Shown here one piece after another: positions 20,993-44,608 of a stretch of DNA of 64,000 bases. Below the pieces are notes generated by a model that was not told the DNA's origin, did not search any database, and worked only from the letters and a program-made list of their open reading frames with translations. The number at the start of each line of letters is the position of its first letter. Within the stretch, counting starts at the first letter, position 1. The DNA is from an uncultured Eubacteriaceae bacterium (GTDB lineage: Bacteria > Bacillota > Clostridia > Lachnospirales > CAG-274). Made by a program: the position numbers and the translations under genes. The DNA lies in assembly GCA_947086655.1 (NCBI GenBank), contig CAMTZM010000009.1:1-64000 (forward strand), in the 5' to 3' direction.

Positions 20993-23900
20993 ATGAATTC
21001 TTTTCAAAAAAATATATTGTATTCGGAAAAAATAAATATGGGTACTGCTGTTTCAAATATAGGCGGTATGATAAAGTTTTCTGTTAATATTTTGTATGAA
21101 CAATTTGAGGAAATAATAACAGAAATAATTTATGCAAATAGTGAAATTCGTTTAAGACTTAACAAGCACAATGAATTATATGAACATAAATGTAAAAAAT
21201 ACAATATTAAAAATATTAAAACAAGCGGAGATTGTTTATCTTTAGCAAAAGAATTTATAAAAACTCCTTTTGATATATATGATAATGATTTATTTGAGTT
21301 TGCATTTGTTGAATATAGCAAAGGTAAAGCAGGATTTTTAAAACTTCATCATTTAATAGGAGATGCTGCAAGCATTGTTCTTATATGTAAAGATATAGAA
21401 AAAGGTTATAAGGAACTGATGGCTAATAAAAATTTTGTTTGTAAACATACTAAAACAGTTTATGAACAGTTATCCAATATAAAAATAAAAAAAGCATCCG
21501 AATATTTTGAAAAAAAACTTTATAATGTGCCTGTTTGCAGCTTAAATACATTATCAAATTATAATGCTGATATTAAAAAATTTTCAATAAAATTGCTTCA
21601 TAAAAATATGTATTCTGATTTTTTAACAGCTTTATATATATATCTGTCAGCGGTTACTGATAATAAAAAAATAATAATAGGAAACGTATTAGCAAACAGA
21701 ACAAAAAAAGAATTTGATATGTTTGGAATGTTTGCTAATAATCTGCCATTTGTTATGGAATTTGAAGATAAAGATTTTTTTGAAATATCAAAAAAAATAA
21801 ATAAAGAATTATTTGTGCTTATGAAATATTCGGGATATTCTTTAATGGATTTAAAAAAATATAACAATTTAAAAGGTAATTTATATAATGTTTCAGTTTC
21901 ATATAAAACAAGCAGGTTTTTACCTAAAATAGATATTGGAGAAGTAATAGAAGTTTTTAATGGATATTGCGATTTACCTATAAGAATTTTTGTAGAAGAA
22001 TACAATAATAGGCTTGACTTTTATATTCATTACAGAAATGAATTGTTTTCAAGCATGCAAATTGAAAGTATGGGAAATTGCATAAAGAATATTTTATTGG
22101 AGAGTAAAAAAAATATAAAAATATCAGAAATATCAGTTTTGTCTGAATACGAAGAAAATATTTATAAAAAATTCAATAATACATATAAAAAACATACTTA
22201 TAACGATGTTATAGAATGCTTTAAAGCGCATATTTCTGAAAACAAAACTGTTGTTTTTGAAGACGATTCAATAAATGGGTATGAACTTGATGAAAAAAGC
22301 AATTATATTGCGGCATCTCTTATAAAAAAGTCCGCAAAACTTGTCGGCATAAAAATTGAAAGAAGTATAGAAATGATTATAGCTGTTATAGCAGTTTTAA
22401 AAAGCGGGGCTGCATTTATTATTGTTTCTGACAAAATTTTAGGTGTTTCAGAAAAATGCAATATTATATTAACAAAAGAGGATGTTTTAAATGCCGAAGA
22501 AGATACTTTTGAGATGCCTATATATAATCCTGAAGATACAGCTTATCTTATATATACGTCAGGTTCGTCGGGGAAACCTAAATGTGTTGAAATAAGCCGC
22601 AAATCACTTATAGCAAGACTTGAATGGGCAAATAGAGTATTTGGACTTAACGGCTCTATACTTCAAAAAACAATAAATACATTTGATGTTTCAATATGGG
22701 AAATGCTTTCAGTAATATATGGAGCAAAACTTTGTATTTTAAAACCAGAAGATGAAAAATTTCCAGATAAAATAGCCGAGGCAATAAATAAATATAAAAT
22801 AGAGAAACTTCATTTTGTTCCGTCAATGCTTGATGTATTTATAAGATATGCAAGAAACAACAATCTTAGATTTCCATCTGTTAAAGCTGTATTTTCAAGC
22901 GGAGAAAAACTTGAAACAAATACCGCTGAAAATTTTTGTAAAGTTTTTGATTCAGAACTTTACAATTTATATGGACCGTCAGAATGTACAATAGATGTTT
23001 CATATCATAAATATGAAAAAAATGAAAAAGAAATACCAATAGGAACTCCGGCTGATAATACACAAATTTATATTATAAATTCTTTCGGTAAAATACTTCC
23101 TATTAATGTTTGCGGAGAAATAGTTATAACAGGAGAATTTGTAGGCAAAGGTTATACAAGCGGAAATAAAGGCGGTTTTTGTGTATTTAACGGCAAAAAA
23201 GCCTATAAAACTGGAGATATAGGCAAAATAGGATATGATGGTAATTTATATATTTATGAAAGAAAAGATTTGCAGGTAAAAATAAGAGGTATGAGAGTTG
23301 ATTTATCAGAAATAAAAAACATTGTATTAAATTGCAAAGATGTAACAGATGCCGTAGTTTTAAAAAACGATAATCGTTTAGAGTGTTTTTACAGCGGCAA
23401 TGCTAAAATTGAAGACATAAAAAAATATATGTTTAACAAAATTCCGTATTACTCTATACCGTCAATATTTCAAAATATTGATGAAATACCGGTAACATCA
23501 GCCGGAAAGGCAGATTTAAAAGCATTACTAAAAATTCCTCAAAATAAATCATATGAGAAATTAAACGAAACTGAAAAAATTATTTTTAAATATGTTAAAA
23601 AACATATAAAAGTAAATCCATACGAAAATTTATTTGAAAAAGGTTTAGATTCTTTGACTGTACTTGATATTGTATGTGAACTTGAAGAAAAAGGTCTTAA
23701 TGTTACGTTTGGAAATTTTTACGAAGGATTGTCTGTAAAAGGCATTGCTTCTGTTATTGATAATAAGAACAAAAATTATACAATATGGCTTAAAAATGAA
23801 AACAATAGAAAACTTTTGATTTGTTTTCCATATGCCGGCGGAGAACCTCAATTTTTTTCAAAATTAGCTGAAAAATTAGATTGTGATACGATTGGAGTAT

Positions 23901-24442
23901 ATATATCATCATTTAATGAAAAACAAAGTATTGAGTATATTGCTGAAAAGGTCTTTTATACAGTACCTTTTAAAAAATATGATGACATATATGTATATGG
24001 ACATTGTATAGGCTGTGCTCCGGCAGCAAAATTTTCTGCGATGCTGAATAATAGATTGAAAGGCATAATATTTGCAGCTCCAGCAGTGAAATTAAAAGAC
24101 AAAGATTCTCCTTGGAAAATAGTTCCAAATAACTTGATAAAAAAATTACTTAAAAAAAGTGGAAGCATGAAATTAAATGATAAAGTTATTTCAAATTTCA
24201 GAAAAGATACAGACAGATACTTTAAATTTAAAAATATGAAAATACAAAATATTAACTGTAAAATAGCTGTTATTTTTGGAACAGATGATATTTTTACTAA
24301 AAATACAGAAAAAATAATGAATAGACTAAAAGAAAATTTAATAGGAGAATATCATCAATATTTTATAAAAAACGGCAAACATTTTTTTGCAGAAACTCAT
24401 ATTAATGAGACTGCTGAAATTATTTCTGATTTTATTAAATAA
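20993..24442 (+). CDS. Single-module NRPS (C-A-T-TE), predicted serine-activating
   Basis: GAGAGG precedes the ATG. Condensation domain: His119-His120 and Asp124 in HHLIGDA keep the catalytic HHxxxD (final Gly is Ala). Adenylation domain: YTSGSSGKPK (about 517), FDVSIWEML, LYGPSEC, YKTGD and SAGKADL. Reading pocket positions against EntF gives D-V-W-H-F-S-L-I-D-K, which matches serine codes. Thiolation Ser is in GLDSLT (about 886). The thioesterase has GHCIG, so its nucleophile is Cys1005 rather than Ser, with Asp near 1097 and His1130. The layout equals EntF, which condenses and cyclises acyl-serine. No donor module or phosphopantetheinyl transferase is in the window. First gene of the large operon. 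Confidence 0.88.
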   Translation: MNSFQKNILYSEKINMGTAVSNIGGMIKFSVNILYEQFEEIITEIIYANSEIRLRLNKHNELYEHKCKKYNIKNIKTSGDCLSLAKEFIKTPFDIYDNDLFEFAFVEYSKGKAGFLKLHHLIGDAASIVLICKDIEKGYKELMANKNFVCKHTKTVYEQLSNIKIKKASEYFEKKLYNVPVCSLNTLSNYNADIKKFSIKLLHKNMYSDFLTALYIYLSAVTDNKKIIIGNVLANRTKKEFDMFGMFANNLPFVMEFEDKDFFEISKKINKELFVLMKYSGYSLMDLKKYNNLKGNLYNVSVSYKTSRFLPKIDIGEVIEVFNGYCDLPIRIFVEEYNNRLDFYIHYRNELFSSMQIESMGNCIKNILLESKKNIKISEISVLSEYEENIYKKFNNTYKKHTYNDVIECFKAHISENKTVVFEDDSINGYELDEKSNYIAASLIKKSAKLVGIKIERSIEMIIAVIAVLKSGAAFIIVSDKILGVSEKCNIILTKEDVLNAEEDTFEMPIYNPEDTAYLIYTSGSSGKPKCVEISRKSLIARLEWANRVFGLNGSILQKTINTFDVSIWEMLSVIYGAKLCILKPEDEKFPDKIAEAINKYKIEKLHFVPSMLDVFIRYARNNNLRFPSVKAVFSSGEKLETNTAENFCKVFDSELYNLYGPSECTIDVSYHKYEKNEKEIPIGTPADNTQIYIINSFGKILPINVCGEIVITGEFVGKGYTSGNKGGFCVFNGKKAYKTGDIGKIGYDGNLYIYERKDLQVKIRGMRVDLSEIKNIVLNCKDVTDAVVLKNDNRLECFYSGNAKIEDIKKYMFNKIPYYSIPSIFQNIDEIPVTSAGKADLKALLKIPQNKSYEKLNETEKIIFKYVKKHIKVNPYENLFEKGLDSLTVLDIVCELEEKGLNVTFGNFYEGLSVKGIASVIDNKNKNYTIWLKNENNRKLLICFPYAGGEPQFFSKLAEKLDCDTIGVYISSFNEKQSIEYIAEKVFYTVPFKKYDDIYVYGHCIGCAPAAKFSAMLNNRLKGIIFAAPAVKLKDKDSPWKIVPNNLIKKLLKKSGSMKLNDKVISNFRKDTDRYFKFKNMKIQNINCKIAVIFGTDDIFTKNTEKIMNRLKENLIGEYHQYFIKNGKHFFAETHINETAEIISDFIK

Positions 24443-24504
24443 TTGCGATAATAATTTTCATAATGAAAGTTGTTATATATTTAATTAAATAAGGAGGTTT
24501 ATAA

Positions 24505-27500
24505 ATGAGAGCAAAAAGAATTATCTCGTCAGTTCTTTCGATTGTACTTATGTTTTCGCAATGTATAAATGTTTTTGCTGAAACTTTAGCACAGGAAAAA
24601 GAAAACGATAAAAAGCTTGAAATGCAGCTTCGAGGCAGCGATGAATTTGCAGCTCTTTATCCAAACGGTAAGTTTGATTTCTTGGCGGCAACAATGAATG
24701 CTTCAGAAAATCTTGATTCTGTTGAAATTGCTGTTGTGAGAAAAGGTGGAACAAAAGGTGAGGCTGAGATTGATTTAAAAGCAATTGATGTTTCTGCTAA
24801 GTATGGTGAGGATTATGTTATTAAGGTTGGAGATTCGTTTTTCAAAACTGAACTTTCCGAAAATCCTGAAGCAAAACCATTAATTGAGGCTTATTACGAT
24901 GTTTCAAAAATCAAAGAAGAAACAGAAAAAGAAGACGACATTATTGAAGTAATTGATTCTCAAACTTCTGACACTTCTGTTACGGTAAATTCCGTATTAG
25001 GTGCAAATCCTTTTGAGGGTTTGGAAGAAGAACAAGAAGAATTAACTGAAACAAATCACAGAAAAGGAAGTTTAAAAAATGCAAGAAATGCTTTTACAGG
25101 TGAAATTTCAGAGCGTAAGGATTGGAATGAAACAGATAAAAAAGATACAAGCAATGAAGACGCTCTTTTCATTGCAAATGAATCTATTCAAAATTGGGCT
25201 GACGAAATTCCCGGTGTATCAACTACTCTTAAATTTGCTGATGGGGAATATATGAAAACTATTACCGTTGATATAATAGACGATAATATTTCAGAAAGCG
25301 ATGAACAAATATTATTTGTTATTTCAGAACCTACAAACGGAGTATTAGGCGATGTTTACAAGGCTTATCTTAATATTGAAGACAATGATAAAAAAGAGAT
25401 TCAGAAATATGAAATGTCACAAGATGAAATATCTGTAAGACGAACTGACGGTACTGCTGAAATAAAGATTATAAGAACTGCTGGTATTGAAAAATTCGGT
25501 TCTGTTTATGTTCAGACGGCAGAAATTACAGCAAAACACGATATAGATTATGAAACTTATTCCGAAGAAGTTGTATTTCCTCAAGGAGTAACCGAAAGGA
25601 CAGTTTCAATTCCTATATTAAAAGAAGAATCAAATCAAGATGGACTTCAATTTAAAGTAACACTGGACAAGTCTTCTGAAATTGTAAATTCATCGAAAGC
25701 AGAGACTATTGTTACTCTTAATAACGATAACAAAGAATTTGCTGCTAAAACAAGAGAATTAAGCCTTTTATCTGAAGGCGAGGAATATGAAGAAATAGTC
25801 GGATTTAAGCACGATGAAAATGGATATTATAAAGAAATTTTATTTGATGAGAAAAATTCTGATAAAATATCACGTGATAATGGAAATTCTGATAAAAATC
25901 TTTATAAAAGCAATACAATATACGTTTCCGAATATAATAAAGAGCAAACGTGGACCATAGATAATATTGACCTTACTATGGTTAAACAAGTTTGTGTTGA
26001 ATGGGAAAACTCGACAAACGGTACATATTGGGAAACAAAAAAATGTAAAAAAGTTACCAATAAAGGATATTATACCGACGGCGACAACTGGGTTACATTT
26101 GGTTCTGACGGTGCTAAATTTAGACCTAATTCTTACAGCAATATAAAGTTTGGAAGACAAACAACAAGTATGAATGTTCCCGAAAATTCCAGTGCTAAAA
26201 ATCAGAAAAGCAATATTAAATTTCATACAAAAACATTAGGCAGCAATAAATATTCAAATTTAAGAATACATTCCGTTAGACTATATTATGCACCTTTTAG
26301 CGTAACAGTGGCTTCTAATACATATTCACAGACAGATAACAACACAGCAAAAAATGCTCTTGTTGATATAAAGGAATGGACTATAAGCAGAAACAATTCA
26401 AGTGGTTACAGTTTCGACAGTGTTAACAATACTTCTTATACTATAACAAGAAAGGCTGTAAATGCAGGAAGTTTAAAATTTAGCAATACAAGCAATACAA
26501 AACAAGATTTTTATTACGGCAAAACAATAAGCTTTACTCCTCAGTATAATTTAGATAAAAACAGAGTATATCTTGCCGGAATATTGATATCAAATGGTTC
26601 AAAGGATATTTTGCTTGAGGGAAAGACAAGTATTACTCTTGATAACAGCTTTTTTTCAACTTACAGAGATTATATTACAAAACCGTATTCTTCAAATCCT
26701 TCATTTACTGTTTATCCTGTATATTATCCGAAACCTTGTTTTATATATTTTCCGCAAACCTCTAACGGATATATGGTTTCGCATAATCAAAAAGATAAAA
26801 CTGATATAATGAAAGTTTCAAGACTTGATACGGTTAAACTTCAAGCTGTTGCAAACAGTGGAAAGTTTGTAAGCGGTTTTAAAGTTTATGGTACTGATTC
26901 GACAGGAATTACTACTGATAAAACTTCGACTAACACAAATGTTAAAGAATTTAGAAAATCATATATTAGCACAGCAAATAGAAATTATAAAATTACAACA
27001 AACAACGTAATGTGGAATCAAAATGACCCTTCATATATAACAATTGCTCCTTCTGTAATGTCTATGAAAATTGAACCGTATTATGATAATCCTTATGTTA
27101 CAGTTAAAGCAAATCCTAAAAACAGTAATAAAGATAAAGGAGCAATATATTATATTGACGGAGATAAAAGTGTTAATGGAGATTATAATAATCCTATTGT
27201 TATAAATCCTATGGTAATGGGTAAAGTATATTCTTTTAATTCAGTGTCAGAAGACGGTTATTCAACTAAATGGCAAGATTTTACAGGAGATAAAAATTTT
27301 GATGGAAAATTTGACAAGACCGAAGCTAAAGAACTTGAAAATTACAAAGTTGACCGTTCGGCTGTTGTAGGTTCTACATATAATTATGTACCGGGAAAAT
27401 TTGCGGCTCCTCTTATATATTATGGATTTTATCCTACATACACAAGCGGTGATAAAGGTACAATTGAGGGAATTTTGAGACTTGTTCAAAAGCCTGTATT

Positions 27501-30500
27501 TTCTACAAAAGAAACAAAAGTACCTATAAAAGGCGCAAAAATTACAATAAGCGATATGACTACTACTACCGATTCATCGGGAAGTTACACAATAGAAAGC
27601 AATACCCTTGCTGATGCTGATAAAGCTATGGTAACAGCAAATTTTGACGGCAATTTTTATACGTTTTCTCAAGATGTCAATGTAGCAAAAATAGTAAATA
27701 TTGACGAATATAATACATTTTCTGTAACGAGCGCTAAATTGTTTAAAGATGGTGCTGAAATAAAAAAAGAAGAACTTGAGACTTTTGATGCAACAGCCAA
27801 AATTGAAATAGGAACAAAATCAGACAGTTCTATTCTTGTATGCTCAAAAGCGCTTTTTAAAACATATGATAAAAACGGAAGCCTTTTATTTAGTGATACA
27901 GTTACAAGTCCAGATGGAAACGGATTTTTCTCTTATGAATTTAATCCGGCAACAAAAGGAATTACGCCGGGTTCAACAATGACGGTTCAGTTTTTTGACC
28001 AAAATGACAAAGGTTATATGGTTCATGATATGGGAGTTACATTTAAAAGATATATTTCTACATCAAGCGTATTTACAAGCTTTAAATCGCCTGTAAAGCC
28101 TGTTTTTGAACTGTTAGGCTCAATCAAGCCTGATTTTGATTTTGGTATTTCCATAAATGGAGGGAATGTTGAATCAAAACGCTCTTTTACTCGTGAGACA
28201 AAAACTGAAAACGGTCAGGTAATGAATTATAAAACATTATCATTAGGTTTTAAAGCAAGTTATAACGATGACAGCAATACAGCAGATGAAGAATCAAAGC
28301 TTGCTAAACTTACAGAATATGTAAAAAATGATATAAACGGCAGCGGAAAATTGAAAGATGAAACAAAAAAACAAGTTAAAGAAGCTACTGATACGTCAGA
28401 TAACGGAAATAAACAAGAAGCTGAGGTAAGTGCTCAAGTCTCTCTTTCTCTTGCGGTTGGCGTTGATATTGTAATGGAAGAAAGTCAGGTTGAAACAGGA
28501 GAATATTTCTTTAAAGACCTTATATTTACAGTGACTTGTGCCGGAGGGTTCGGAATGGAAACGGAATTGCCGACTCCTATATGTGTAAATATAATTATAG
28601 GCTTTGAAGTAAGCGGAGAAGTTACCGGAACTATTGTAATAAGCAGAGGTAAAAATGCAAAGGAAAGTTATTTCAACGAAAACGGAGAAATAAATTTAGG
28701 AAACTTGACAATGCTTACAGAAGATGAAGCAAAATCCGAAAGTTCCGATTTTACATTCTATGGTGCTCTTCAAGTTGTACCGTCAATTAAGCTTAAAGCC
28801 GGAGTATCTATTGCAAAAATACTAAATGTTACAGTTGATGGAACAGTATCCTTTGACCTTAATTTTAATACATTAGGAAAGAGTTCAGGGGCTATAACTA
28901 TGAATGCTGGAATATCTCTTACAGTTTTAATGTTTACAAAAAGATGGGATATGGGAACAGTTACTGAGCCTATATTCGGCAAAAGTCGTTCGTCAGATTT
29001 AGTTAATCTTAAAAGCGGCGGCGATTTTCTTCATGATTCTATAAGTGATATGGAAAAAACAAATATTTCATATATGAAGAACAGGAGCGGATGGAACAGT
29101 GGAGTCTCAAGATTAAGAAATAGCGATTCAGTTGTTGAAAATACTCTTATTAAAGGAGCAAATCCTTATCCGCAAAGCGTTATTAAACAACTTCCGGATG
29201 GAAGATTTATGCTTGTGTTTATTGATGATGATATTTCAAAAGATGAGTATAATTATGCTACGGTTAAATATTCTGTATATTCAAGCGGCGGCTGGTCAGA
29301 ACCTGCTGCAATAGACAATGATAAAACGGCTGATGAGGCTCCTGATTTATTTGTTCTTGATAATGGTATGGTTATGGCTGTATGGTCAAGTGCAGACGAA
29401 AAAATTACTAAAGATGACAATGCTATTGAAGCACTTAATAAAATGAATATAAAATCGGCAATTTACAATGGAAGTTCTTTTGGAGAACCTGTTGAGGTTA
29501 CTCATACAACTGCGGCTGATTACTGCGCTGATACACAGCCTAAACTTGCAAGCGGAACAATTGACGGAAAAGAAATAATAATACTTTATTATACAAAAAC
29601 GGAATATGAAGCCACAGAAGAGGACGGCGTTATAGGTGATTTGGTAAATCCTTATTCTGTTACAGCATATATGTTCTATGACGTTGAAAATGACGAATGG
29701 GTAAATACTTATTCACAAAAAGACAAAGATGAAATTATAAATACAGGTATTGCACATACAAGCAGCGGAGAACTTGTTACAGAGGATAATTTTAATGTAT
29801 ATGAATCAGAGTGGTATGGTCAAGGATTTGTTTCGCTTGGTTCAAATGTTGTTATAAACGATTTTGACAAGACTAATGAAAATGGATTTTGGACGGAAAT
29901 GCCTGAGATTAAAGAGGGAGATAATGACGTTGACCCTATGGTAGTTGACAGCAGTGTTATTTCTTATGAAAATTTGTCAATTTTTGCCTACACAGTTGAT
30001 TTTGATCAAGACCCGGAAACAACATATGATAGAGAAATTTATGTTCAAGTTTATGATTTTAATACAAATGAATTTTTCTATCCTATACAAATTACAAGTA
30101 ATGATGTTAGCGATAGTGCAGTTAAACTTGGAAGATTTGGGGACAGTACATATATTATATGGCTTTCAGAAGGAAAAATTAAATATTTTAATTTTTCAAA
30201 CGCCTATAAAAATTGCCTGTTAGAAAAAGAAATTAACGGCAAAAAGGTTTATATAATTGATAAATCTTCGGAAGAAAACTTTATTCCGGAAGGCATAGTT
30301 ATAGACGCTGGAGAAAATGTTAAAATAAGTGAGTTTGAAGCTGCTGCAGACAGTGAAAATAACGTATATGTTTTATGGACACAGACAGGACTTACATATA
30401 AAGACGGCATAGACCAAACCTCTGAAGAAGCTGTAAAACCTGAAAACCAATATTCAGAAAACCAAATTTATATGGCACGTTACAGCGCTGACAGAAATTC

Positions 30501-32451: not shown

Positions 32452-32520
32452 ATAAAAAACAATGCAGGCAGATATGTAAATATTTGTCTGCAAATAAAAA
32501 TTTATTGGAGGATAAAATTT

Positions 32521-32679
32521 ATGGCAGATAATAAGAAAGAAAATGAAAAAAAGATTGAAGAAAATGTACAAGAAGAACTTGATATAGAGGATTTACAAAA
32601 AGTAAGCGGTGGTTCTTTAAAAGATACTCATACAAGAAGGACATCCAAAGCGTCATCGTCTTCAAAAAGCAGAGCATAA
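32521..32679 (+). CDS. Double-glycine peptide precursor (52 residues)
   Basis: A GGAGG site nine bases before the ATG supports translation. The 31-residue leader is acidic and ends in ELDIEDLQKVSGG, the double-glycine pattern cut by C39 peptidase transporters. The 21-residue core starts SLKDTH. It has six Lys/Arg against one Asp, seven Ser, three Thr, one His, no Cys and no aromatic residue. The operon encodes a C39-ABC transporter, HlyD protein and second ABC three genes later, so this is the obvious export substrate. It does not carry the long nitrile-hydratase or Nif11 leader usual for NHLM systems. Whether the core is modified is unknown. Confidence 0.82.
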   Translation: MADNKKENEKKIEENVQEELDIEDLQKVSGGSLKDTHTRRTSKASSSSKSRA

Positions 32680-32717
32680 AATAAAGTATTAAATATAAAT
32701 TTAATACAGTTTTTACA

Positions 32718-32752
32718 TATATAGGAGACTGTAAAAAACGGTCTCCTGTATA
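32718..32752 (+). promoter_or_regulatory. Hairpin between peptide gene and export genes
   Basis: TATATAGGAGAC pairs with GTCTCCTGTATA (12 bp, one G-U) around an 11-base loop, 38 bases after the precursor stop. No T-run follows, so it is a poor terminator. It may be an attenuator or mRNA-stabilising structure that lets the peptide be made in excess over the exporter. Confidence 0.6.
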
Positions 32753-32906
32753 GTCTAAGTGTATGTCATATTCAATTAGTTTAAAAAAACAAAAGAAAAG
32801 TATATGAGAGTTATTTAAAAAAAACATAGTTGATTACACATAAAAACAAAAACTTTATTTATTATAAAAAAACTATGTGTATAAACGTAATGAACAGGAG
32901 ATTTGT

Positions 32907-34736: not shown

Positions 34737-34750
34737 AAGGAGCGATAAAT

Positions 34751-35662
34751 ATGGCGGACTTATTTAGAAAAAATGCACTTGATACATTAGCTACTCCGGA
34801 ACAATTAGATAAACATATAGAAATTATTTCAGTTTCGGTTTGGATTATATGTTTAATACTCATAGTTGGAACTGTTACGTTTGTTTTATGGAGTTTTACC
34901 TATCATATTACAAACGGAATTGATTTAAAAGGAATAATTTTTCCAAATAATAAAGTTGTACAAAAAAAAGCTGTAAGAGATTGTATTGTAACAGATGTTC
35001 TTGTATCGGAAGGAGAACATGTTGAAATAGGTGATATTATAGCGGTAATTTCATATAATGAAATGCTTGATGAAATAAATTTCCAAAAATTAGAACTTTC
35101 AAAATTTGAGAATAATTCAGAGAAATATAATATTATACAAAACAATATTAAAGACCTTATTGATGAATATATTGCAATGACTGTAATAAAAAGTAGTTGT
35201 TCTGGATATGTACAAAGTGTTGTAAGCGATGGAACAGCACTTACAACAGGTAATCTTATTTTTTCAGTTATGCCTGATAACGGATATGATGAAGTTGTTT
35301 CTTATGTGCCTATGCAAAAGGCTAAAAGTTTAAGTTTAGGCATGAAGACTCAAATTTCTCCAGTATATGCTCAAAGAGAAGAATATGGCTATATGACAGG
35401 TACAATAACTTCGGTAGGTGTATCTCCGATTTCTGAAGAAAGTATTATAGCTAAAATGGGAACTTTGTCTTACGCTAAAGATATATTGCCAGAAACTTCA
35501 TTTGTTGAAATAAGAATAAGACTTGACCTTAATTCTGAAGCTGAAAATAATTATCACTGGTCGAATGAAAAAGGAGAAAAACTTTCTGTTGGTTTTGGAA
35601 CTCAATGTTCTGTTGTAGCTATAACAAATGAATATCGTCCTATTGAGTTATTACTGAATTAG
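34751..35662 (+). CDS. NHLM-type HlyD secretion (membrane fusion) protein
   Basis: AAAGGAG precedes the ATG, 14 bases after the previous stop. The opening MADLFRKNALDTLATPEQLD is typical of NHLM_micro_HlyD proteins. One membrane helix follows (about 27-51), then two biotinyl-lipoyl-like halves (IVTDVLVSEGEHVEIGD and SSCSGYVQSVVSDGTALTTG) around a short coiled coil. At 303 residues it is normal. It should link the two ABC proteins to the wall side and guide the exported peptide. Confidence 0.9.
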   Translation: MADLFRKNALDTLATPEQLDKHIEIISVSVWIICLILIVGTVTFVLWSFTYHITNGIDLKGIIFPNNKVVQKKAVRDCIVTDVLVSEGEHVEIGDIIAVISYNEMLDEINFQKLELSKFENNSEKYNIIQNNIKDLIDEYIAMTVIKSSCSGYVQSVVSDGTALTTGNLIFSVMPDNGYDEVVSYVPMQKAKSLSLGMKTQISPVYAQREEYGYMTGTITSVGVSPISEESIIAKMGTLSYAKDILPETSFVEIRIRLDLNSEAENNYHWSNEKGEKLSVGFGTQCSVVAITNEYRPIELLLN

Positions 35663-35674
35663 GAGGATTAATAT

Positions 35675-37831
35675 ATGAAAAATACAGTAAAAAAAGTTCC
35701 CGTTATATTGCAAATGGAGGCTTTAGAATGCGGAGCGGCATCTTTAGCTATGATTTTAGCTTATTATAAAAAATATGTTTCCCTTGAAAAATTAAGGCTT
35801 GATTGTAATGTTTCACGAGACGGAAGTACAGCAAAATATATAATACTTGCGGCAAAGCATAATAATATGAACGCAAAAGGTTTTCGTATGAGCGTTGATA
35901 AATTAAAGAAAGAAACAGAATTACCGGTAATTATACATTGGAATTTTAATCATTTTGTAGTGCTTTGTGGTTTTAATAAAGATAATGCAATTATAAACGA
36001 CCCGGCTCAGGGTTGTGTTTCCATAGATATGGAGGAATTTGACTGTTCATTTACAGGGATTGTACTTAAATTTTCACCTTCTGAAAATTTTTTGCCCTCA
36101 GGAAAACCTAAAAATATAATGGCGTTTATAAGAAAACGTATAAAAGGAAATAAAAAGGCATTATCTATTATTGTTTTTATAGGATTTATACTTTCTGTAT
36201 TAGATATTGTTAAATCGGTGTTTTATAAAATATTTACTGATAATATTCTTTTAGGAAATGCAGCAGAATTATTAAAACCGGTTCTTATAGGAATGTTTAT
36301 AGTTCTTATTGCTAAATTTTTAGCTTTAAGTTTAGAAAGAGTTTGCCTTTTAAAACTTAAAGCTAAAATGTGTATTGGTTCTTCTTCAATATTTATGTGG
36401 CATATTTTACGGCTGCCTATTGAGTTTTTTTCTCAGCGTTTTGCAGGAGATATAGCATCAAGGCAGCAAAGTAATAACGATATAGCAGAAATGTTCTGTT
36501 ATTGTTTTGCTCCGGCAATACTTAATATATTAATGATATTTATATATATTCCTATGATATTATATTATGACTTTGCACTTGCGGCAATAGGAATTTTGGC
36601 AGCATTTGTTGATATTTTTATTATAAAAACTGCATCGGCAAAAAGTGAAAACGATGCAAAAACAATGCAGCGTGACAAAGGCAAACTCTCTGGCATTACT
36701 GTATCGGCGGTTTCTATGATTGAAACAATTAAATCAAGCGGTGCAGAATTTGGACTTTTTGAAAAAATTGCAGGTTATCGTGCCAAATATAACAATTCAT
36801 TGCTTCATTTAAGAAAAAGAAATATGTTTACAAGCATTGTTCCAGAAATACTTTCAGGCGTTACAAAAGGCGCTGTACTTATTGTTGGCACTTACTATAT
36901 ACTTAGCGGAAAATTTACAGTCGGTTCTCTTATGGCTTTTCAAGGTTTTATGAACAGTTTTCTTTCTCCGATAAATTCTGTTACTGAAACAATTCAGAAT
37001 ATAAGGGAAATGTCAGGAGATATAGAACGCATAGAAGATGTTATGGCTTATCCAACTGACGCAAGTGAAAATGTTTTTTTGTCTGAAAACAATTCTAAAA
37101 ATTATAAAAAACTTTCGGGAAAACTTGAAATAAAAAAACTTTGTTTTGCTTATAGCCCTCTTGCTCCCAATTTAATAGAAAATTTTTCGCTTAAAGCTGA
37201 AAAAGGGAAAACAATAGCATTAGTTGGAGGAAGCGGAAGCGGTAAATCAACAATAGCAAAGATTGTCTCAGGCTTATATACTCCAAGAAGCGGAGAGATA
37301 TTATTTGACGGTGTTTCTATTAAAGATATTGACAGATATGTTTTTAAAGGTTCAGTTGCAGTTGTTGATCAAAATATATCTCTTTTTGAAGGAACTATAA
37401 AAGACAACATAACAATGTGGGATAATACCATTTCAGAAGAAACGATAATTTCAGCCTGTAAAAACGCTTGCATTCATAATGATATAATGAGCCTTTTAGA
37501 CGGTTACGAATACATAATAAAAGAAGGAGGTTCAAATTTTTCCGGCGGGCAAAGACAAAGACTTGAAATAGCAAGAGCGTTTGCTGTTAATCCATCTATT
37601 ATTATACTTGATGAGGCAACTTCAGCATTAGACCCTATAACAGAAAAACTTATAATAGATTCTGTAAAACGCCAAAAAATTACTTGTTTAATAATAGCTC
37701 ATCGTCTTTCAACAATTCGAGATGCTGATGAAATTATTATGCTTTCTAATGGGGTTGAAGTTGAAAGAGGAAATCACAAAGAATTAATGAAAAAAAACGG
37801 AAAATACGCAGAATTAATAAGAAACGAATAG
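35675..37831 (+). CDS. NHLM-type ABC exporter with C39 peptidase domain
   Basis: AGGAGG precedes the ATG. The N-terminal C39 peptidase is complete: Gln13, Cys19 in ALECGAAS, His93 in NHFVVL and Asp109 in NDPAQG. Six membrane helices (about 160-430) follow. The nucleotide-binding domain has Walker A GGSGSGKST, signature FSGGQRQRL, Walker B IIILDEATSA and the switch His in IIAHRLST. It should cut the precursor at 32521 after Gly-Gly and export the core. Length 718. Confidence 0.94.
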   Translation: MKNTVKKVPVILQMEALECGAASLAMILAYYKKYVSLEKLRLDCNVSRDGSTAKYIILAAKHNNMNAKGFRMSVDKLKKETELPVIIHWNFNHFVVLCGFNKDNAIINDPAQGCVSIDMEEFDCSFTGIVLKFSPSENFLPSGKPKNIMAFIRKRIKGNKKALSIIVFIGFILSVLDIVKSVFYKIFTDNILLGNAAELLKPVLIGMFIVLIAKFLALSLERVCLLKLKAKMCIGSSSIFMWHILRLPIEFFSQRFAGDIASRQQSNNDIAEMFCYCFAPAILNILMIFIYIPMILYYDFALAAIGILAAFVDIFIIKTASAKSENDAKTMQRDKGKLSGITVSAVSMIETIKSSGAEFGLFEKIAGYRAKYNNSLLHLRKRNMFTSIVPEILSGVTKGAVLIVGTYYILSGKFTVGSLMAFQGFMNSFLSPINSVTETIQNIREMSGDIERIEDVMAYPTDASENVFLSENNSKNYKKLSGKLEIKKLCFAYSPLAPNLIENFSLKAEKGKTIALVGGSGSGKSTIAKIVSGLYTPRSGEILFDGVSIKDIDRYVFKGSVAVVDQNISLFEGTIKDNITMWDNTISEETIISACKNACIHNDIMSLLDGYEYIIKEGGSNFSGGQRQRLEIARAFAVNPSIIILDEATSALDPITEKLIIDSVKRQKITCLIIAHRLSTIRDADEIIMLSNGVEVERGNHKELMKKNGKYAELIRNE

Positions 37832-37840
37832 GTGTTTATT

Positions 37841-39985
37841 ATGAATTTTTCTGAAAAAATTAAAAGAAAAAAAGAAATTGATTTAAAAATATTAGAAAAT
37901 GCTTCAAAAACCGTATATAAATCTTTAAGTAATACTGATACAAAATACGAAAATAACAATATTGATATTGCAGCATTAGAAATGCAGCGTATATGCAGTT
38001 TTTTTAAGATTAATAAAATTATATTTCCAAATGGTATGGATATAGAAAATATAATGCAGTTTGCTATGAGTGAAACAGGTATGATGAGAAGAAAAATTGT
38101 ATTGACAGGCAAATGGTGGAAAAATGTTTCAACACCTTTGTTTTGTATTAAAGGCGGTAATCCTTATGCACTTATTCCATGCAGTCAGAATTATATTTAT
38201 TATGAAAAAAACAGTACCGTAAAAGTAACTTCAAAAAACGCATCTGATTTTGACAATACTTGCTATTGTTTTTATAAGCCAATGAAAAATCAAACTTTGG
38301 GCATAAAAGATTTTATAAAATTTGTTTGCGGCGCTCTTAATACATCAGATATAATTTGGCTTACGGCGGTAAGTTTAGCGGCAGTTTTTACAAGTATGAT
38401 AATGCCCGAAATAAATCAGTTTATATTTAATTCATTGATTCCGTCAGGAACATCAAAAGAGATGTTTGGAATAAGTATACTTATAATCGGCGCTGTTTTT
38501 ATACAATCTTTATGCTATTTGGCACGATTAATGTGGGTAATGAGAATAGGAAACAAGGCGGAAATATTGGTTCAAAATGCTGTATGGGCAAGATTGCTTT
38601 TATTGCCGGCAGATTTTTTTAAAAATTATTCTGCCGGAGAAATTTCAGAACGTGCAGATTCAATAGATATGATTTGTTCTATATTAAATGGACAAATAAT
38701 ACCTGTTTTTTTAGGAATGTTGTTTTCATTTTTATATCTGTTTCAGATTGCATTAATAGCACCACATATGTTTTTTATATCTGTTATTATTATTTTGATA
38801 ATGTTATTTATAAATATTATAACAGCAGTATTTGAAATAAAACAAAAAAATTATAATATCAATTTAGAAAGCAAACTTTCAGGAATTGTGTTCCAATTTT
38901 TAAATGGGATTACAAAAATAAAAGCAGCAGGCGCTGAAACACGAGCTTTTGGAAAATGGGCTGAAATTTACTCTAATATAAATATTATGCCATCAAAAAT
39001 ATTGCTGTTTTCAAATGCTTTAAACAGTGCCGTAAATTTTGGAGGAACTATAATATTGTATTATTTGGCGTATAGTTCAAAAATGAGTGTTTCAGATTAT
39101 ATTGCTTTTAATACATCGTTTTCTTTGCTTTTGATTTCTATAATATCTTTTTCCGATATAACGTCGCATATAGCATTAATTAAAGCTGCTGTTAATATGC
39201 TTATGCCTATAATTAGAGAAACGCCGGAAAATTCAGGATATAAAAAACATGTTTTATCTCTTGACGGAGACATTGAAATTAATCGTATCAAATTTAGATA
39301 CAGTGATGAAACACCTTATATTTTAGATGAATTTGAACTTCATATAAGAAAAGGAGAATATATAGGAATAGTCGGTTCTTCAGGCTGTGGAAAATCAACT
39401 CTTGTGCGAATACTCTTAGGTTTTGAAAAACCTCAGTCAGGTTCAGTTTATTACGATTCTTTGGATTTGAGCGGTTTGGATATAAGGAGTGTAAGGCAAA
39501 GAATGGGTGTTGTACTTCAAAACGGAAAATTGTTTTCAGGAGATATATATTCAAATATTGTTGTATGTGCTCCTTATTTGTCAATTGACGAAGCGTGGGA
39601 AGCCGCTGAAAAAGCGGGATTTGCCAATGATATACGCAATATGCCTATGGGTATGTTTACAATGATTTCAGAAAGCGGCGGCGGTCTTTCAGGCGGTCAG
39701 CAGCAAAGACTTCTTATTGCGAGAGCGCTTGCTCCTAATCCTGATGTTATTATATTTGACGAAGCTACTTCCGCTCTCGACAATATAACTCAGTCGATAG
39801 TTGTTGATACTTTAGAAAAAATGAAGTGTACTCGTTTGGTTATTGCTCATAGATTGTCGACAATAAAAAATTGTTCAAAAATAATTTATATAGACAAAGG
39901 CAAAATTATTGAATCAGGTACGTATAACGAACTTATGGAACGTGGAGGCAAATTTGCCGAAACAGCAAAACGTCAAATTATATAA
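37841..39985 (+). CDS. NHLM-type second ABC exporter (no peptidase)
   Basis: The ATG at 37841 has AGGTG seven bases upstream overlapping the previous stop; GTG at 37832 is less well placed. The N-terminal about 150 residues replace the peptidase and contain RKIVLTGKWWKNVSTPL and NPYALIPC, the hallmark of NHLM_micro_ABC2. Membrane helices then lead to an ATPase domain with GSSGCGKST, LSGGQQQRL, VIIFDEATSA and VIAHRLST, all intact. It probably forms a heterodimer with the C39 protein. Length 714. Confidence 0.92.
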   Translation: MNFSEKIKRKKEIDLKILENASKTVYKSLSNTDTKYENNNIDIAALEMQRICSFFKINKIIFPNGMDIENIMQFAMSETGMMRRKIVLTGKWWKNVSTPLFCIKGGNPYALIPCSQNYIYYEKNSTVKVTSKNASDFDNTCYCFYKPMKNQTLGIKDFIKFVCGALNTSDIIWLTAVSLAAVFTSMIMPEINQFIFNSLIPSGTSKEMFGISILIIGAVFIQSLCYLARLMWVMRIGNKAEILVQNAVWARLLLLPADFFKNYSAGEISERADSIDMICSILNGQIIPVFLGMLFSFLYLFQIALIAPHMFFISVIIILIMLFINIITAVFEIKQKNYNINLESKLSGIVFQFLNGITKIKAAGAETRAFGKWAEIYSNINIMPSKILLFSNALNSAVNFGGTIILYYLAYSSKMSVSDYIAFNTSFSLLLISIISFSDITSHIALIKAAVNMLMPIIRETPENSGYKKHVLSLDGDIEINRIKFRYSDETPYILDEFELHIRKGEYIGIVGSSGCGKSTLVRILLGFEKPQSGSVYYDSLDLSGLDIRSVRQRMGVVLQNGKLFSGDIYSNIVVCAPYLSIDEAWEAAEKAGFANDIRNMPMGMFTMISESGGGLSGGQQQRLLIARALAPNPDVIIFDEATSALDNITQSIVVDTLEKMKCTRLVIAHRLSTIKNCSKIIYIDKGKIIESGTYNELMERGGKFAETAKRQII

Positions 39986-39998
39986 AAGGATATTTTTT

Positions 39999-40934
39999 AT
40001 GAAAACTTACGATAAATCAAAAACAAATAATTTATATAAACATTTTAAAATTCCAAATATTTCTGATGTAAAACAATTTCGTCTTTTTGGAAATAATACA
40101 GAATTTGGCGACCGTAGTTTTTCGCTGATTTATGCATGGCAGGAAAGTTTTATGTATGTTTATAGAGTTATTGAAAATACTATTGCGGTTTTGGAATATG
40201 GTATTGATAAAAAATTATCTGTTATACTTCTTCATAAAGAAAATACTGATATATTCCCAGCAGTTTTTAAGCTTTACAAAATATTTTCAGATTTTGAACT
40301 TATACTCAAATTTGAATATGTCAGCGAAAAAAATATATTTGCATATGAAACAGCGGCTAAAAAATTTAATAAAAAAATTAAAGTTTTTTTTAACTCAAAC
40401 GATAGTGATTATTTTTATGAAACGACTGATTTTCTTGTTTTGAAAGGAAAATGCAATAAAAAGAAAAGAGGTGATATTAATTACTTGATTAGAAATTATC
40501 CAGATATTGAGATTGTTTCACATAGCAAAAAAAATAATCTTATAAAAGCAAGCATTAGTATTTTTGATAAATGGTGCAATATACATAATTGTAAAAATTG
40601 TTTTTATGGGTGCGAAAAAAAGGCTTTTTTAAGGTTTATGGAAGTTTTTGACGAAAGGTATAATAAACTATGTGTTTCATATTATAAAGAAACACCTTTA
40701 TCATTTGCTTTAAGCGAATATATAGGAAATGATACTGTTTGCTATTATTTTCAAAAAAACGCTGAAAGAATAAGAGGTCTTACATACTGGCTTAACGCTG
40801 AAATGGCAAAAGAGCATATAAATATAAAATATATTAATTTAGGTGAAGATATGGGAATAGATGGAATAAAAAAAGATAAAGAAAGTCTGCGACCTTCATT
40901 TTTAAAACCTAAATATTTTGTAGAAATATTGTAA
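39999..40934 (+). CDS. DUF2156 protein (MprF C-terminal/GNAT-fold aminoacyltransferase-like)
   Basis: AAAGGA is eight bases before ATG 39999; an earlier frame start at 39909 lies inside the ABC gene. The 311-residue protein matches DUF2156: FGDRSFSLIYAWQESF near the start, and SFALSEYIGNDTVCYYFQK, then YINLGEDMGIDGIKKDKESL near the end, as in the soluble lysyl-transfer domain of phosphatidylglycerol lysyltransferases. No membrane helices. Such domains use aminoacyl-tRNA to acylate a small acceptor. In this operon the peptide, a lipid or the NRPS product are candidates. Confidence 0.85.
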   Translation: MKTYDKSKTNNLYKHFKIPNISDVKQFRLFGNNTEFGDRSFSLIYAWQESFMYVYRVIENTIAVLEYGIDKKLSVILLHKENTDIFPAVFKLYKIFSDFELILKFEYVSEKNIFAYETAAKKFNKKIKVFFNSNDSDYFYETTDFLVLKGKCNKKKRGDINYLIRNYPDIEIVSHSKKNNLIKASISIFDKWCNIHNCKNCFYGCEKKAFLRFMEVFDERYNKLCVSYYKETPLSFALSEYIGNDTVCYYFQKNAERIRGLTYWLNAEMAKEHINIKYINLGEDMGIDGIKKDKESLRPSFLKPKYFVEIL

Positions 40935-40945
40935 AGGAGATATAT

Positions 40946-43900
40946 ATGAAACGAAAGAAAAATCATAATAAAAACAGCATTTTTATTATAATATTATTAC
41001 TTGTTTTGCTTACGGCGTTTATTTCATCTAATTTTGGTTGTCTATTTAATAACCCTTTTGAAAAAGAAAAATTTCTTGTTAATCCTGTTAAATTATGTAC
41101 TTCCAACGACAGTATTGTTTATATTTCTAATTCGTCAAATGAAATTCTTATAACGGATGAAAGTAACCGTTTGTTGAATAAAATTGAAAGTGACGGAGGT
41201 GAAATTTATTTTGATTATGCTGATGAAATAGCAATAGGAGATAATGGAGAAATTTATATTCAAGATAATGTTTTTGCTGAAAACGGTGTTGATATTTTAA
41301 ATGAAAGAATATTAAAATTTAATTCCTTTGGAAAACGGCGAGAAATTGTTTATGAAACAGACATTTCTGAAAAAGATATAAAAAATGTCGTTATTGATAG
41401 TCTTAAAATAATTGACGGAAAAATTTATTTTTCTGAAATATCACAAAAAGGAGTTAAAGTTTTATATTTGAATGGACAAGAAACCATAGAAATTGGTTTT
41501 GTGGAATATGAAAATACAAACAATATAATTTCTGACAGTAGTTTTGATTTAAAAGAAAATGGAGTTGAAATTGCTTTTTCTTTAAAAAACGGAGACGTTT
41601 TTATTTATGATAATGAAGAATTAAAATGTCTGTATTCAGCAAGAAAATACGATAATGAGAATTATTTCAGCATAATTTCTGAATTGGCTTACGGTAATAA
41701 AGGTCTTTATTTATGTGATATAGGGCAAAGAAAAGTTATTTGTATAAATACTGAAACTCTGGAATTTGATACGATAATATCAAAAAAAGAATTTTCTATT
41801 ACAGATTCAAATAAGTTCTCGGATGCTCCTATTTTTTCAGGACTTGAAGTATCAAACAATACAGTATCTGTATTAACAACAGAATATACATATGATGAAA
41901 ACGAAAAGCCTTTGTATTTATATGGTATGGCGGCAGTTTCGGAGGAGGGTGAGGAATTGTTTTATTATGATTCTGTCACTATTTCACCTCAAAGAATAAT
42001 ATTTGTTGTTTCTGTAAATATTGCAGCAATTTTGATACTTGTTATATCGATTTATGCTGTTTTTAAAATTGTTATATTGATAAGAAATTCAAAGTTTGAA
42101 GAAAGTTCTAAAGTACAAATTATAATGATTGTAACAGCGCTTATTGTAACAATGGGAATGTCTTATATTATTTTTGAAAGTTATAATTCAAGAATTGTAA
42201 ATGAGTCAGCTTCAAATTTATGCAATATAGCATATTTAATAGGTGAAAAAATAAATTTTAATGACCTTGAGAAAATAGATAATCCAAATTCTATTTTTGA
42301 AAAAAGCTACAAAAATATAGATAAAGCTGTAAATGAGGTTTTGCAAAGCGCTGTAAATCAAAAAAATAATCTTTACTGTGTAATTTATAAAGTGAAAAAT
42401 AATATTATATACGAAACTTATAGAGACGATTTTTCGCATTGTGCAATGTATCCTATGTCAGGGGGTTTTGCAGGTTCTATTGAAGAAGAAATGGCAGCAA
42501 ATAATAGATATGATATTTCATATGAGTTTGCATTTTCTGAAGGAACATATATGTATGCACTTGTTCCATTATATGATGAAAATGACAAAAATATTGCTTT
42601 TATTGAAACCGGTATGGATTATTCGGCATTTGTAGGAGAAAACAATAGACTTTATACAAAAGTTCTTATGTTTGCCGTTATGGCTGTAATTATATTTATG
42701 CTTTTGCTTTCAGAAATTTTATATAGTGTTGAAGCTGTAAAAGCTGAACGAATTTCAAAAAAGAAAAATACAATAACTTCTCCTGAAGTAATAAGACCTA
42801 TTGCATTTTTATTTTTTGGGATTGCTAATATATCAACAGCGTTTCTTCCTATATATGGAATGAATTTATGCAGCGGCAGCAGTTTTATTTCGCCGGAATT
42901 GGCGGCAGCGTTTCCATTGTCTGCCGAAATGATATTAGCGGCGTTATCAGCTTTTGTCTGTGGGTTTCTTGTAAAGAAAACAGGAATTAAGGCTATATGT
43001 GTAACAGGAGGAATATTTTATATTTTTGGGAATATATTTTCAGCTTTTGCGCCGAATATAATTGTTTTAATATTCGCTAATTCATTATGCGGAATAGGAA
43101 GCGGTTGTTTGTCACTTTCTTTAAATACTTGGGCAGCAGGATTTAATGAAGAAGAAAACAGAAATAAAGGATTTATACATATAAATGCGGCGTATCTTTC
43201 AGGACTTAATTGTGGAACTGTAATAGGTTCTTTAATATGGGAAAATTTTGGAATAGATACGGCATATTTTATGGGAGCGACAGCGGCATTTATATTAATA
43301 GTAATATGTTTTATTATGATAAGCAAAACTGAAGAAGTATCTAATAATGAAACTGAAGAAACAACAGTAAGTATTAAAGAAATTATATCCTTTAATGTAA
43401 TCAGATACTTTGTATGTATTAGTATACCGTATTTAATATGTGCAGCATTTTTGGGATATTTCTTCCCTATTGAAGCTGAAGAAACAGGACTTTCAGCTAC
43501 CCATATTTCAATGGCGTTTTTACTAAGTGGTATGATTTCTATTTATACGGGTTCATCATTGGCTGAAATTATATCCGAAAAGCTTGGTATAAAAAAGGCT
43601 ATGATTTTAGCCTCATTTATATACGCTTTGGCTTTGATTTATCTTTCGGTAAATCCATCTATAACAAGCTGTTATATTGTAGTGGCTTTGTTTGCTGTTG
43701 CAGATAGTTTTGGATTGTCAGCACAGTCGGTTTATTTTTCAGAGCTGCCGGAGGTTGAAAAAGTTGGACAAAGTAAGGCTCTTGGTTTAAACAACACAAT
43801 AGAAAGCATAACAACAGCCTGTGGTTCTCTTGTGTTTGGTGCAGTTCTGACATTAGGAATACAAAAAGGCATATTAATTGTAGCGGTTATATTTTCGGCT

Positions 43901-43954
43901 ATGCTTGGGCTTTTTGTACTTTTTGGGAGAAAGTTATATAATGAGGAGATGTAA
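40946..43954 (+). CDS. Extracytoplasmic beta-propeller and sensor domain fused to an MFS transporter
   Basis: AAAGGAG precedes the ATG. After an N-terminal membrane helix (about 12-30) come about 310 residues of repeated beta segments (for example GDNGEIYIQD, NGDVFIYDN, GNKGLYLCD), like a six- or seven-bladed propeller. Helices at about 352-374 and 394-412 follow, then an outer PAS/Cache-like domain (about 413-570), a helix, and about 12 MFS helices (605-1000; GMISIYTGSSLAEIISEKLG). The length of 1002 is about twice a plain MFS. It could export or import a small molecule under control of an outside signal. Architecture seen; function inferred. Confidence 0.8.
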   Translation: MKRKKNHNKNSIFIIILLLVLLTAFISSNFGCLFNNPFEKEKFLVNPVKLCTSNDSIVYISNSSNEILITDESNRLLNKIESDGGEIYFDYADEIAIGDNGEIYIQDNVFAENGVDILNERILKFNSFGKRREIVYETDISEKDIKNVVIDSLKIIDGKIYFSEISQKGVKVLYLNGQETIEIGFVEYENTNNIISDSSFDLKENGVEIAFSLKNGDVFIYDNEELKCLYSARKYDNENYFSIISELAYGNKGLYLCDIGQRKVICINTETLEFDTIISKKEFSITDSNKFSDAPIFSGLEVSNNTVSVLTTEYTYDENEKPLYLYGMAAVSEEGEELFYYDSVTISPQRIIFVVSVNIAAILILVISIYAVFKIVILIRNSKFEESSKVQIIMIVTALIVTMGMSYIIFESYNSRIVNESASNLCNIAYLIGEKINFNDLEKIDNPNSIFEKSYKNIDKAVNEVLQSAVNQKNNLYCVIYKVKNNIIYETYRDDFSHCAMYPMSGGFAGSIEEEMAANNRYDISYEFAFSEGTYMYALVPLYDENDKNIAFIETGMDYSAFVGENNRLYTKVLMFAVMAVIIFMLLLSEILYSVEAVKAERISKKKNTITSPEVIRPIAFLFFGIANISTAFLPIYGMNLCSGSSFISPELAAAFPLSAEMILAALSAFVCGFLVKKTGIKAICVTGGIFYIFGNIFSAFAPNIIVLIFANSLCGIGSGCLSLSLNTWAAGFNEEENRNKGFIHINAAYLSGLNCGTVIGSLIWENFGIDTAYFMGATAAFILIVICFIMISKTEEVSNNETEETTVSIKEIISFNVIRYFVCISIPYLICAAFLGYFFPIEAEETGLSATHISMAFLLSGMISIYTGSSLAEIISEKLGIKKAMILASFIYALALIYLSVNPSITSCYIVVALFAVADSFGLSAQSVYFSELPEVEKVGQSKALGLNNTIESITTACGSLVFGAVLTLGIQKGILIVAVIFSAMLGLFVLFGRKLYNEEM

Positions 43955-43957
43955 GTA

Positions 43958-44608
43958 ATGTCTGTTTATAAGTTAAATGAAAATAATTTTGAATTTCCGG
44001 AATATGCAGATGATGAAAATGCTATTGCTATCGGAGGAATTTTAAATAGTGAAACTCTTGTTAAAGCTTATTCAAATGGAATATTTCCGTATTATTATGA
44101 TGAAGAAATATCTTGGTGGAGACCTCTTAACAGATATGTTATATTTCCAAAAAATATAAAAGTTTCGCATTCAATGAAAAGTATTTTAAATCAAAAAATT
44201 TTTGAAGTTACTTTTAATAAAAAATTTAGCGAAATTATACACAAATGCAGAAAAAAAAGAGAATATACAGAAGAAGGAACTTGGATTAATGACAATATAG
44301 AATCTGAATATAATAAATTATTTAAAGATGGTTTGGGATTTAGTGTTGAAGTATGGAAAAATAATAAACTTGCCGGGGGTCTTTACGGAGTTAAGTTAGG
44401 AAAATGTTTATTTGCTGAAAGTATGTATTATGATGTTGCAAATGCTTCAAAAATGGCTATGATTTCTCTTGCCAAAAAAGCATTGGCAGAAAATTATATA
44501 TTTATTGATTGTCAGTTTTATACAAAACATCTTGAAAGTATGGGAGGAGAGTTTATACCTCATAATAAATTTTTTTTACTTATTAAAGAAGGTATGAAAT
44601 ATATATAG
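43958..44608 (+). CDS. aat: Leucyl/phenylalanyl-tRNA-protein transferase
   Basis: It starts three bases after the transporter stop, with its ribosome site inside that gene. Conserved Aat motifs are all present: AIAIGGILNSETLVKAYSNG, IFPYYYDEEISWWRP, TWINDNIESEYNKL, GFSVEVWKNNKLAGGLYG, ESMYYDVANASKMA and IDCQFYTKHLESMGG. At 216 residues it is full length. Aat moves Leu or Phe from tRNA to N-terminal Lys or Arg and feeds the ClpS-ClpAP pathway in Proteobacteria. It is uncommon in Clostridia, and no clpS or clpA is near. As last gene of a peptide-export operon it may modify the peptide or a partner instead. Confidence 0.92.
   Translation: MSVYKLNENNFEFPEYADDENAIAIGGILNSETLVKAYSNGIFPYYYDEEISWWRPLNRYVIFPKNIKVSHSMKSILNQKIFEVTFNKKFSEIIHKCRKKREYTEEGTWINDNIESEYNKLFKDGLGFSVEVWKNNKLAGGLYGVKLGKCLFAESMYYDVANASKMAMISLAKKALAENYIFIDCQFYTKHLESMGGEFIPHNKFFLLIKEGMKYI

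Follow-up and report, generated by a model that had tools for sequence, protein, structure and literature searches.

The closest described relatives of the locus considered here, a gene cluster in a 64,000-nt stretch of DNA from an uncultured Eubacteriaceae bacterium (contig CAMTZM010000009.1; the whole stretch is called the window below), resemble it part by part. The NHLM/NHLP export systems (TIGR03794, TIGR03796, TIGR03797) share with it the C39-ABC1, ABC2 and HlyD set and a double-glycine (GG)-type leader, but the window set is tied to a binding protein and to a giant SLH protein, and its precursor has no nitrile-hydratase or Nif11 leader. EntF, the enterobactin synthetase, has the same C-A-T-TE order as the nonribosomal peptide synthetase (NRPS) of the cluster and a serine pocket alike at nine of ten positions; the cluster NRPS differs further in having a Cys instead of a Ser in its thioesterase, with an Asp at a RifR-like place, and in lacking partner DHB genes. 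ObiF, the obafluorin synthetase, makes N-acyl-alpha-amino-beta-lactones with a GxC thioesterase of the same Asp placement, and its Cys-to-Ser mutant mainly hydrolyses (PMC6668435). The window NRPS shares the GxC thioesterase and the Asp on beta6, features linked to N-acyl-amino-beta-lactone formation, but is predicted to use serine rather than a beta-hydroxy aryl amino acid and has neither a second A domain nor an MbtH domain. In E. coli Lgt, Arg143 and Arg239 are essential for diacylglyceryl transfer (PMC4728403); an Lgt-like protein of the cluster shares the fold (5azb) and Arg143, but has Ile for Arg239, Phe for Tyr235 and a GCC motif, and is fused to a lipobox-bearing binding protein. Finally, recombinase-driven promoter inversion is known in gut bacteria from the RecV flagellar switch of C. 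difficile (PMC7446863) and from Bacteroidales (PMC8748976). The window has the same succession of a promoter between inverted repeats, a site-specific recombinase and a surface/export operon 3' to them, with the differences that the recombinase gene lies inside the predicted invertible segment, beside the operon, and that here inversion is a prediction. We propose tentatively, and at somewhat less than an even chance, that the locus is a biosynthesis-and-display cluster, phase-variable and probably acquired horizontally, whose product is a short secreted or displayed peptide that the NRPS probably modifies. The cluster joins GG-peptide export of a ribosomal product and an NRPS, two routes that are normally separate, with a surface protein and a built-in switch, in uncultured gut Clostridia.

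The original prediction, made from the window alone, described ten co-directional genes at 20993-44608 with gaps mostly below 15 bp. Indeed, ten open reading frames (ORFs), all on the + strand and with intact frames, occupy this interval (Table 1), and the successive gaps are 62, 69, 197, 14, 12, 0, 13, 11 and 3 bp, six of the nine being shorter than 15 bp. The domains assigned to the ten genes are also those found with Pfam and NCBIfam: C-A-T-TE, SLH/Calx-beta/CARDB, Lgt plus binding protein, NHLM HlyD/ABC1/ABC2, LPG_synthase_C (DUF2156), MFS and Aat. What the prediction missed is the beginning. The real unit starts 5' of 20993, with a tyrosine recombinase gene (19688-20845) and flanking sites that belong to it, and these were overlooked together with the predicted invertible promoter.

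Table 1. Features of the unit, with positions in the window
Feature	Coordinates	Strand	Remarks
Left recombination site TTTCGTAGACTAAATCAATCTACGAAA	19468..19494	+	Palindromic arms, asymmetric AAATC spacer; left edge of continuous similarity with G018/G032
Outward sigma70-type promoter	19525..19553	-	TTGACA-17-TACAAT with TG; would point into the operon after inversion
Tyrosine recombinase, phage-integrase type	19688..20845	+	385 aa; between the two inverted sites
Right recombination site	20866..20892	-	Repeats the left site in inverted orientation; + strand spacer GATTT
Single-module NRPS, C-A-T-TE	20993..24442	+	1149 aa; code DVWHFSLIDK; triad Cys1005/Asp1099/His1130
Giant surface protein	24505..32451	+	2648 aa; Calx-beta, CARDB, Big_2, C-terminal SLH; Sec-type signal by eye
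Double-glycine peptide	32521..32679	+	52 aa; predicted mature core SLKDTHTRRTSKASSSSKSRA, conserved SL[KR]DxHxR
Strong RNA hairpin	32720..32750	+	In the 197-bp gap 3' of the peptide gene; limits approximate; z -4.95
Lgt-fold membrane domain fused to LivJ-type substrate-binding protein	32877..34736	+	Internal lipobox LLTSC at the junction
NHLM-type HlyD adaptor	34751..35662	+	
NHLM ABC1 exporter	35675..37831	+	C39 leader peptidase
NHLM ABC2 exporter subunit	37832..39985	+	
DUF2156 / LPG_synthase_C	39999..40934	+	311 aa; aminoacyl-transferase-type GNAT fold; likely start ATG 39999
Extracellular sensor-like region fused to MFS transporter	40946..43954	+	1002 aa; ten-gene clade only
Aat-type leucyl/phenylalanyl-tRNA-protein transferase	43958..44608	+	216 aa; active-site motifs intact

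Relatives were sought in other genomes (given here as G-numbers) by a whole-genome search with the Lgt-binding-protein fusion as query, after which the neighbourhoods of the matches were read. The prediction would have been refuted had these genes never recurred together, and it withstood this comparison: the complete ten-gene set with the upstream recombinase is present in G018, and the complete set, spread over two contigs, in G032, both genomes belonging to a different genus from that of the window. The proteins are about 72-88% identical between the window and these two genomes, no reading frame is broken, and dN/dS stays within 0.10-0.22 throughout, apart from the peptide gene (0.13 and 0.48), which is very short. 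By this measure the genes of the unit are under purifying selection. Continuous nucleotide similarity to G018/G032 starts at 19461, just after a separate 40-bp match (19388-19426), and stops at the Aat stop codon (44604), with nothing beyond. The recurrence of the full set, the purifying selection and these sharp edges make the ten genes more than a chance neighbourhood. The edges, taken with a moderate dS between genera, also suggest that the cluster was probably acquired horizontally. Carriage by a phage or plasmid was rejected, since no relative of the Lgt-like protein was found in IMG/VR or PLSDB and no copy of the 27-bp recombination site in IMG/VR. The unit is real and rare, its hosts are uncultured gut Clostridia, and searches of open-access papers returned no account of this gene set, in agreement with the prediction that it was undescribed. 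A fragmentary, divergent relative in G047 (L042, L159) has split ABC1 and ABC2 frames and a stop in the NRPS, possibly through decay or assembly errors.

Comparison of more distant clusters separates an older core from later additions. Clusters in G001, G006 and G031 keep the binding protein, HlyD, ABC1, ABC2, the Lgt-like protein, the NRPS and the peptide, and are without DUF2156, sensor-MFS and Aat; the giant SLH protein is present in G006 and G031, with none on the G001 contig. Loci in G002, G007, G010 and G038, and a second locus in G006, have only the binding protein, the exporter and a related giant, and the peptide, where seen, differs. Ordinary NHLM clusters of the same family have neither the binding protein nor the giant. 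Altogether the NRPS, the Lgt-like protein, the binding protein and the exporter co-occur in seven genomes of one clostridial family, the peptide in six and the SLH giant in six. An Lgt-like orthologue was found in 6 of the 48 genomes of the family and nowhere else among the 392 of the order. When 84,980 species genomes were scanned with a pattern, the same five relatives and no further Lgt-like locus came up; all are from uncultured Clostridia/Bacillota, at least two of them from the rumen. In seven genomes an NRPS orthologue exceeds 1300 bits, the next-best NRPS reaching 403 bits, and in the 392 genomes the Lgt-like and NRPS orthologues were never found away from the peptide-export core. On these distributions, the older core is smaller than ten genes and consists of the binding protein, the NHLM exporter, the Lgt-fold protein, the seryl NRPS, the giant SLH protein and the GG peptide. 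By the same comparison DUF2156 is younger, and sensor-MFS and Aat are confined to the ten-gene clade.

The recombinase gene is bracketed in all three genomes by two 27-bp copies of TTTCGTAGATTAAATCAATCTACGAAA, one of them inverted, and the window genome holds no other copy. The outward promoter, immediately within the left site, is the strongest of its region in the window, a chance match of this kind arising in 0.05% of 200-bp random stretches of like composition; its counterpart in G018 and G032 is a perfect TTGACA-18-TATAAT with TG. Between the right site and the NRPS, the + strand has no promoter of comparable strength. After inversion, the computed distance from promoter to NRPS start would be 187-189 bp. 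The operon appears to be switched by flipping of this promoter. Inversion fits better than excision because the sites stand in inverted order. The recombinase was also considered as an island integrase with attL and attR; the left site does lie at the left edge, but the right edge has no second copy, only a weak ACTAAAT-like similarity, and this was rejected.

The peptide is defined, as far as its sequence goes, by what follows the GG and not by charge. SL[KR]DxHxR occurs at this place in six of six peptides: SLKDTHTRRTSKASSSSKSRA in the window, then SLRDTHTRRTSSASSSSKSRI, SLRDTHTRRTSSASSSSKSRV, SLRDAHVRNTSSASSSSKDRI, SLKDVHVRPPQPKDS and SLKDVHTRPTQSVDN. The basic secreted peptide of the original prediction holds for the four clusters with a long Ser/Lys/Arg tail, the cationic peptide of the window among them, but not for the whole family, the G001 and G006 relatives (cores SLKDVHVRPPQPKDS, SLKDVHTRPTQSVDN) being not cationic. 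A DNA pattern for SL[KR]DxHxR matched 12 of the 392 genomes, namely six NRPS genomes and six in which the match was not a GG-peptide ORF (a reversed control pattern matched 3 of 392), and the core is found in exactly the six genomes that carry the NRPS and the Lgt-like gene. Clusters without these two genes have other peptide types, LNP[PQ]RVDIHPYDDDVK[SG]RM in G038 and G007 and ETVIGxDNxIKS in G002 and G010. Among clusters sharing the exporter and the binding protein, the core therefore accompanies NRPS/Lgt in 6/6 cases as against 0/4 without them (one-sided exact probability 1/210). The only family signal on the peptide is that of a short GG bacteriocin (TIGR01847, 16.5 vs 15.7 bits, E 0.0098); no family match was obtained for a nitrile-hydratase-like or Nif11-like leader. 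Each of the six related clusters has a hairpin in the gap behind its peptide gene, which would fit separate control of the peptide level. The binding-protein/NHLM block of G001 is preceded by some six small GG peptides in tandem (MTKINDDDLNNVSGG...; L044:4358-5801), so that one exporter may serve several peptides.

The prediction of a seryl NRPS was borne out by the binding pocket. In alignment, the window code differs from that of EntF (DVWHFSLVDK) at one of ten positions, which argues for serine as the substrate. The protein has the condensation HHxxGD and the carrier motifs. Its thioesterase has a Cys as nucleophile (GHC[IV][GS]; the last position of the GxCxG motif is Ser in G001 and G006), the Cys1005-Asp1099-His1130 triad is invariant in six sequences, and the Asp occupies the place seen in RifR and ObiF. 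By analogy with ObiF, release as an acyl-serine beta-lactone or by acyl transfer would be the likeliest outcome. A PDB profile search placed the condensation domain closest to LgrA, followed by weak matches to 7c1k/7c1h, and both starter and elongation types are compatible.

The Lgt fold of the fusion protein (likely start ATG 32907, matching its orthologues) is recovered in an AlphaFold model (pLDDT 78; Foldseek match to 5azb, E 7.6e-05, probability 1.00). Arg143 is kept, but Arg239, which 15 other clostridial paralogues retain, has given way to Ile in every one of the six cluster proteins. Since Arg239 is essential in the E. coli enzyme, canonical Lgt chemistry was rejected as the default, and ordinary lipidation of the peptide through this domain is doubtful. 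The protein may bind lipid or perform another transfer, and an Lgt-fold protein without Arg239 hints at a new activity in a well-studied enzyme family. In the ten-gene clade, a KKLKK-hydrophobic-LLTSC segment follows directly on the Lgt-like domain and may allow the binding protein to be freed as a lipoprotein. NHLM peptide export, as predicted, is indicated by ABC1, which scores above the TIGR03796 cut-off (895.9 vs 853.3 bits); ABC2 (TIGR03797, 675.4 vs 709.4 bits) and HlyD (TIGR03794, 144.5 vs 156.2 bits) fall just below theirs, these models still being the best for each. Pfam also places the SLH domains at the C-terminus of the giant protein, as expected of the anchored protein that had been predicted. 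Outside the family, G178, from another family of the order, combines an NHLM HlyD-ABC1-ABC2 block with a GG peptide (core RRRGKVEAGKGFIS) and a binding protein (L048:7169-15926); no giant SLH protein was recognised in that stretch. The pairing of binding protein and NHLM block is wider than this system.

The proposed course of events is built on the gene set, its conservation, the domain motifs, the geometry of sites and promoter and the peptide/NRPS correlation, from which we infer the inversion, the export and every chemical step. The recombinase would invert a 1.4-kb segment with its outward promoter, the assembled state being OFF and the inverted state ON. In the ON state the 52-aa precursor would be made, the C39 domain would cut off the GG leader, and the core SL[KR]DxHxR... 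would leave through the NHLM ABC1/ABC2/HlyD complex, with the lipoprotein binding protein at the membrane and the giant SLH-anchored protein on the wall as partner. Meanwhile the seryl NRPS, assuming a starter-type acyl donor, would make an acyl-seryl thioester, and its Cys thioesterase would free an activated acyl-serine, as a beta-lactone or by direct acyl transfer. This product, with the Lgt-fold membrane protein, may modify or accompany the peptide, and DUF2156, Aat and sensor-MFS may be later additions for tailoring, immunity or sensing. The fullest version, a ribosome-NRPS conjugate in which an acyl-serine or beta-lactone sits on a GG peptide held on the S-layer by the giant, under a recombinase that flips its own gene and promoter, is improbable as a whole.

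Several observations weigh against this scheme. The orientation is OFF in each of the three assemblies, and that of the window contains no alternative junction. The genome has a single phosphopantetheinyl transferase match, a 131-aa ORF of AcpS size, which makes activation of the NRPS less certain, and an enzyme for the acyl donor was not found within the operon. Arg239 is missing from the Lgt-like protein. The presumed meeting of the NRPS product with the peptide is drawn from their correlation, which counts ten related, non-independent clusters.

The operon might instead make two products. One, such as a free N-acyl-serine or its beta-lactone, would come from the NRPS, whether or not the Lgt-like protein takes part; the other would be the peptide, exported independently and unmodified to act with the surface protein. 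A C-A-T-TE protein is complete as a module by itself, free beta-lactones are what ObiF-like thioesterases release, and G002, G038, G007 and G010 have a peptide, an exporter and a giant without NRPS/Lgt. We nevertheless consider two products unlikely, although not far-fetched: the peptide core shifts with the presence of NRPS/Lgt (6/6 vs 0/4), and in the 392 genomes these two genes were never found apart from the peptide-export core. A modified peptide remains the reading that we prefer.

The aminoacyl TRANSFERASES (Aat, DUF2156) belong to the unit and, on their distribution, stand outside its core. The DUF2156 proteins common in the family are only distantly related to that of the cluster (22-29%). 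Aat is a genuine member of its family: it scores 155.3 bits against the 143.55 of the family model, its WW, EEGTW, ES and DCQ motifs align with the E. coli enzyme, and it is the sole Aat in G018 and G032, the window genome having a second on contig C1. Aat prefers N-terminal Arg or Lys. As the predicted mature peptide begins with Ser-Leu, action of Aat on its N-terminus was judged unlikely, and the aminoacylated peptide that had been predicted fits poorly, all the more so as Aat, sensor-MFS and DUF2156 came later and are absent from three clusters. The same genes could serve self-protection, by membrane-lipid aminoacylation or efflux, if the peptide were a bacteriocin that kills neighbours. 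Bacteriocin loci typically have NHLM exporters and GG leaders, lipid-aminoacylating enzymes have DUF2156 as their catalytic domain, and the window peptide is cationic. However, the G001, G006 and G031 clusters lack the would-be protective genes, the G001 and G006 cores carry no such charge, the DUF2156 protein, of 311 aa, comes without an extra membrane domain, and a giant SLH partner with a short hydrophilic core is unlike pore-forming bacteriocins, which makes a bacteriocin very improbable. Least probable of all is cell-cell signalling, in which the lipoprotein binding protein would catch the peptide and sensor-MFS (predicted structure of low confidence, pLDDT 32) would read it: a LivJ-type binding protein does lie within the exporter block in all clusters and sensor-MFS is coupled in three genomes, but the unit encodes neither a response regulator nor a kinase or transcription factor, most clusters are without sensor-MFS, and a signal seldom calls for an NRPS plus a 2648-aa wall protein.

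Three other ORFs of the window may be mentioned. A 104-aa ORF at 63515-63829, near the window edge and possibly incomplete, has a KTGTSG motif and resembles the C-terminal part of a class D beta-lactamase or penicillin-binding protein. At 52489-58014 lies an 1841-aa glycoside hydrolase family 3-like protein that, by eye, seems to have a Big_2-like stretch and a C-terminal rhodanese-like domain, an odd combination. The third, at 3239-5275, encodes a CotH-kinase-like protein followed by a copper-amine-oxidase-type C-terminal domain, and by BLAST such domains also occur near several NHLM loci of relatives.

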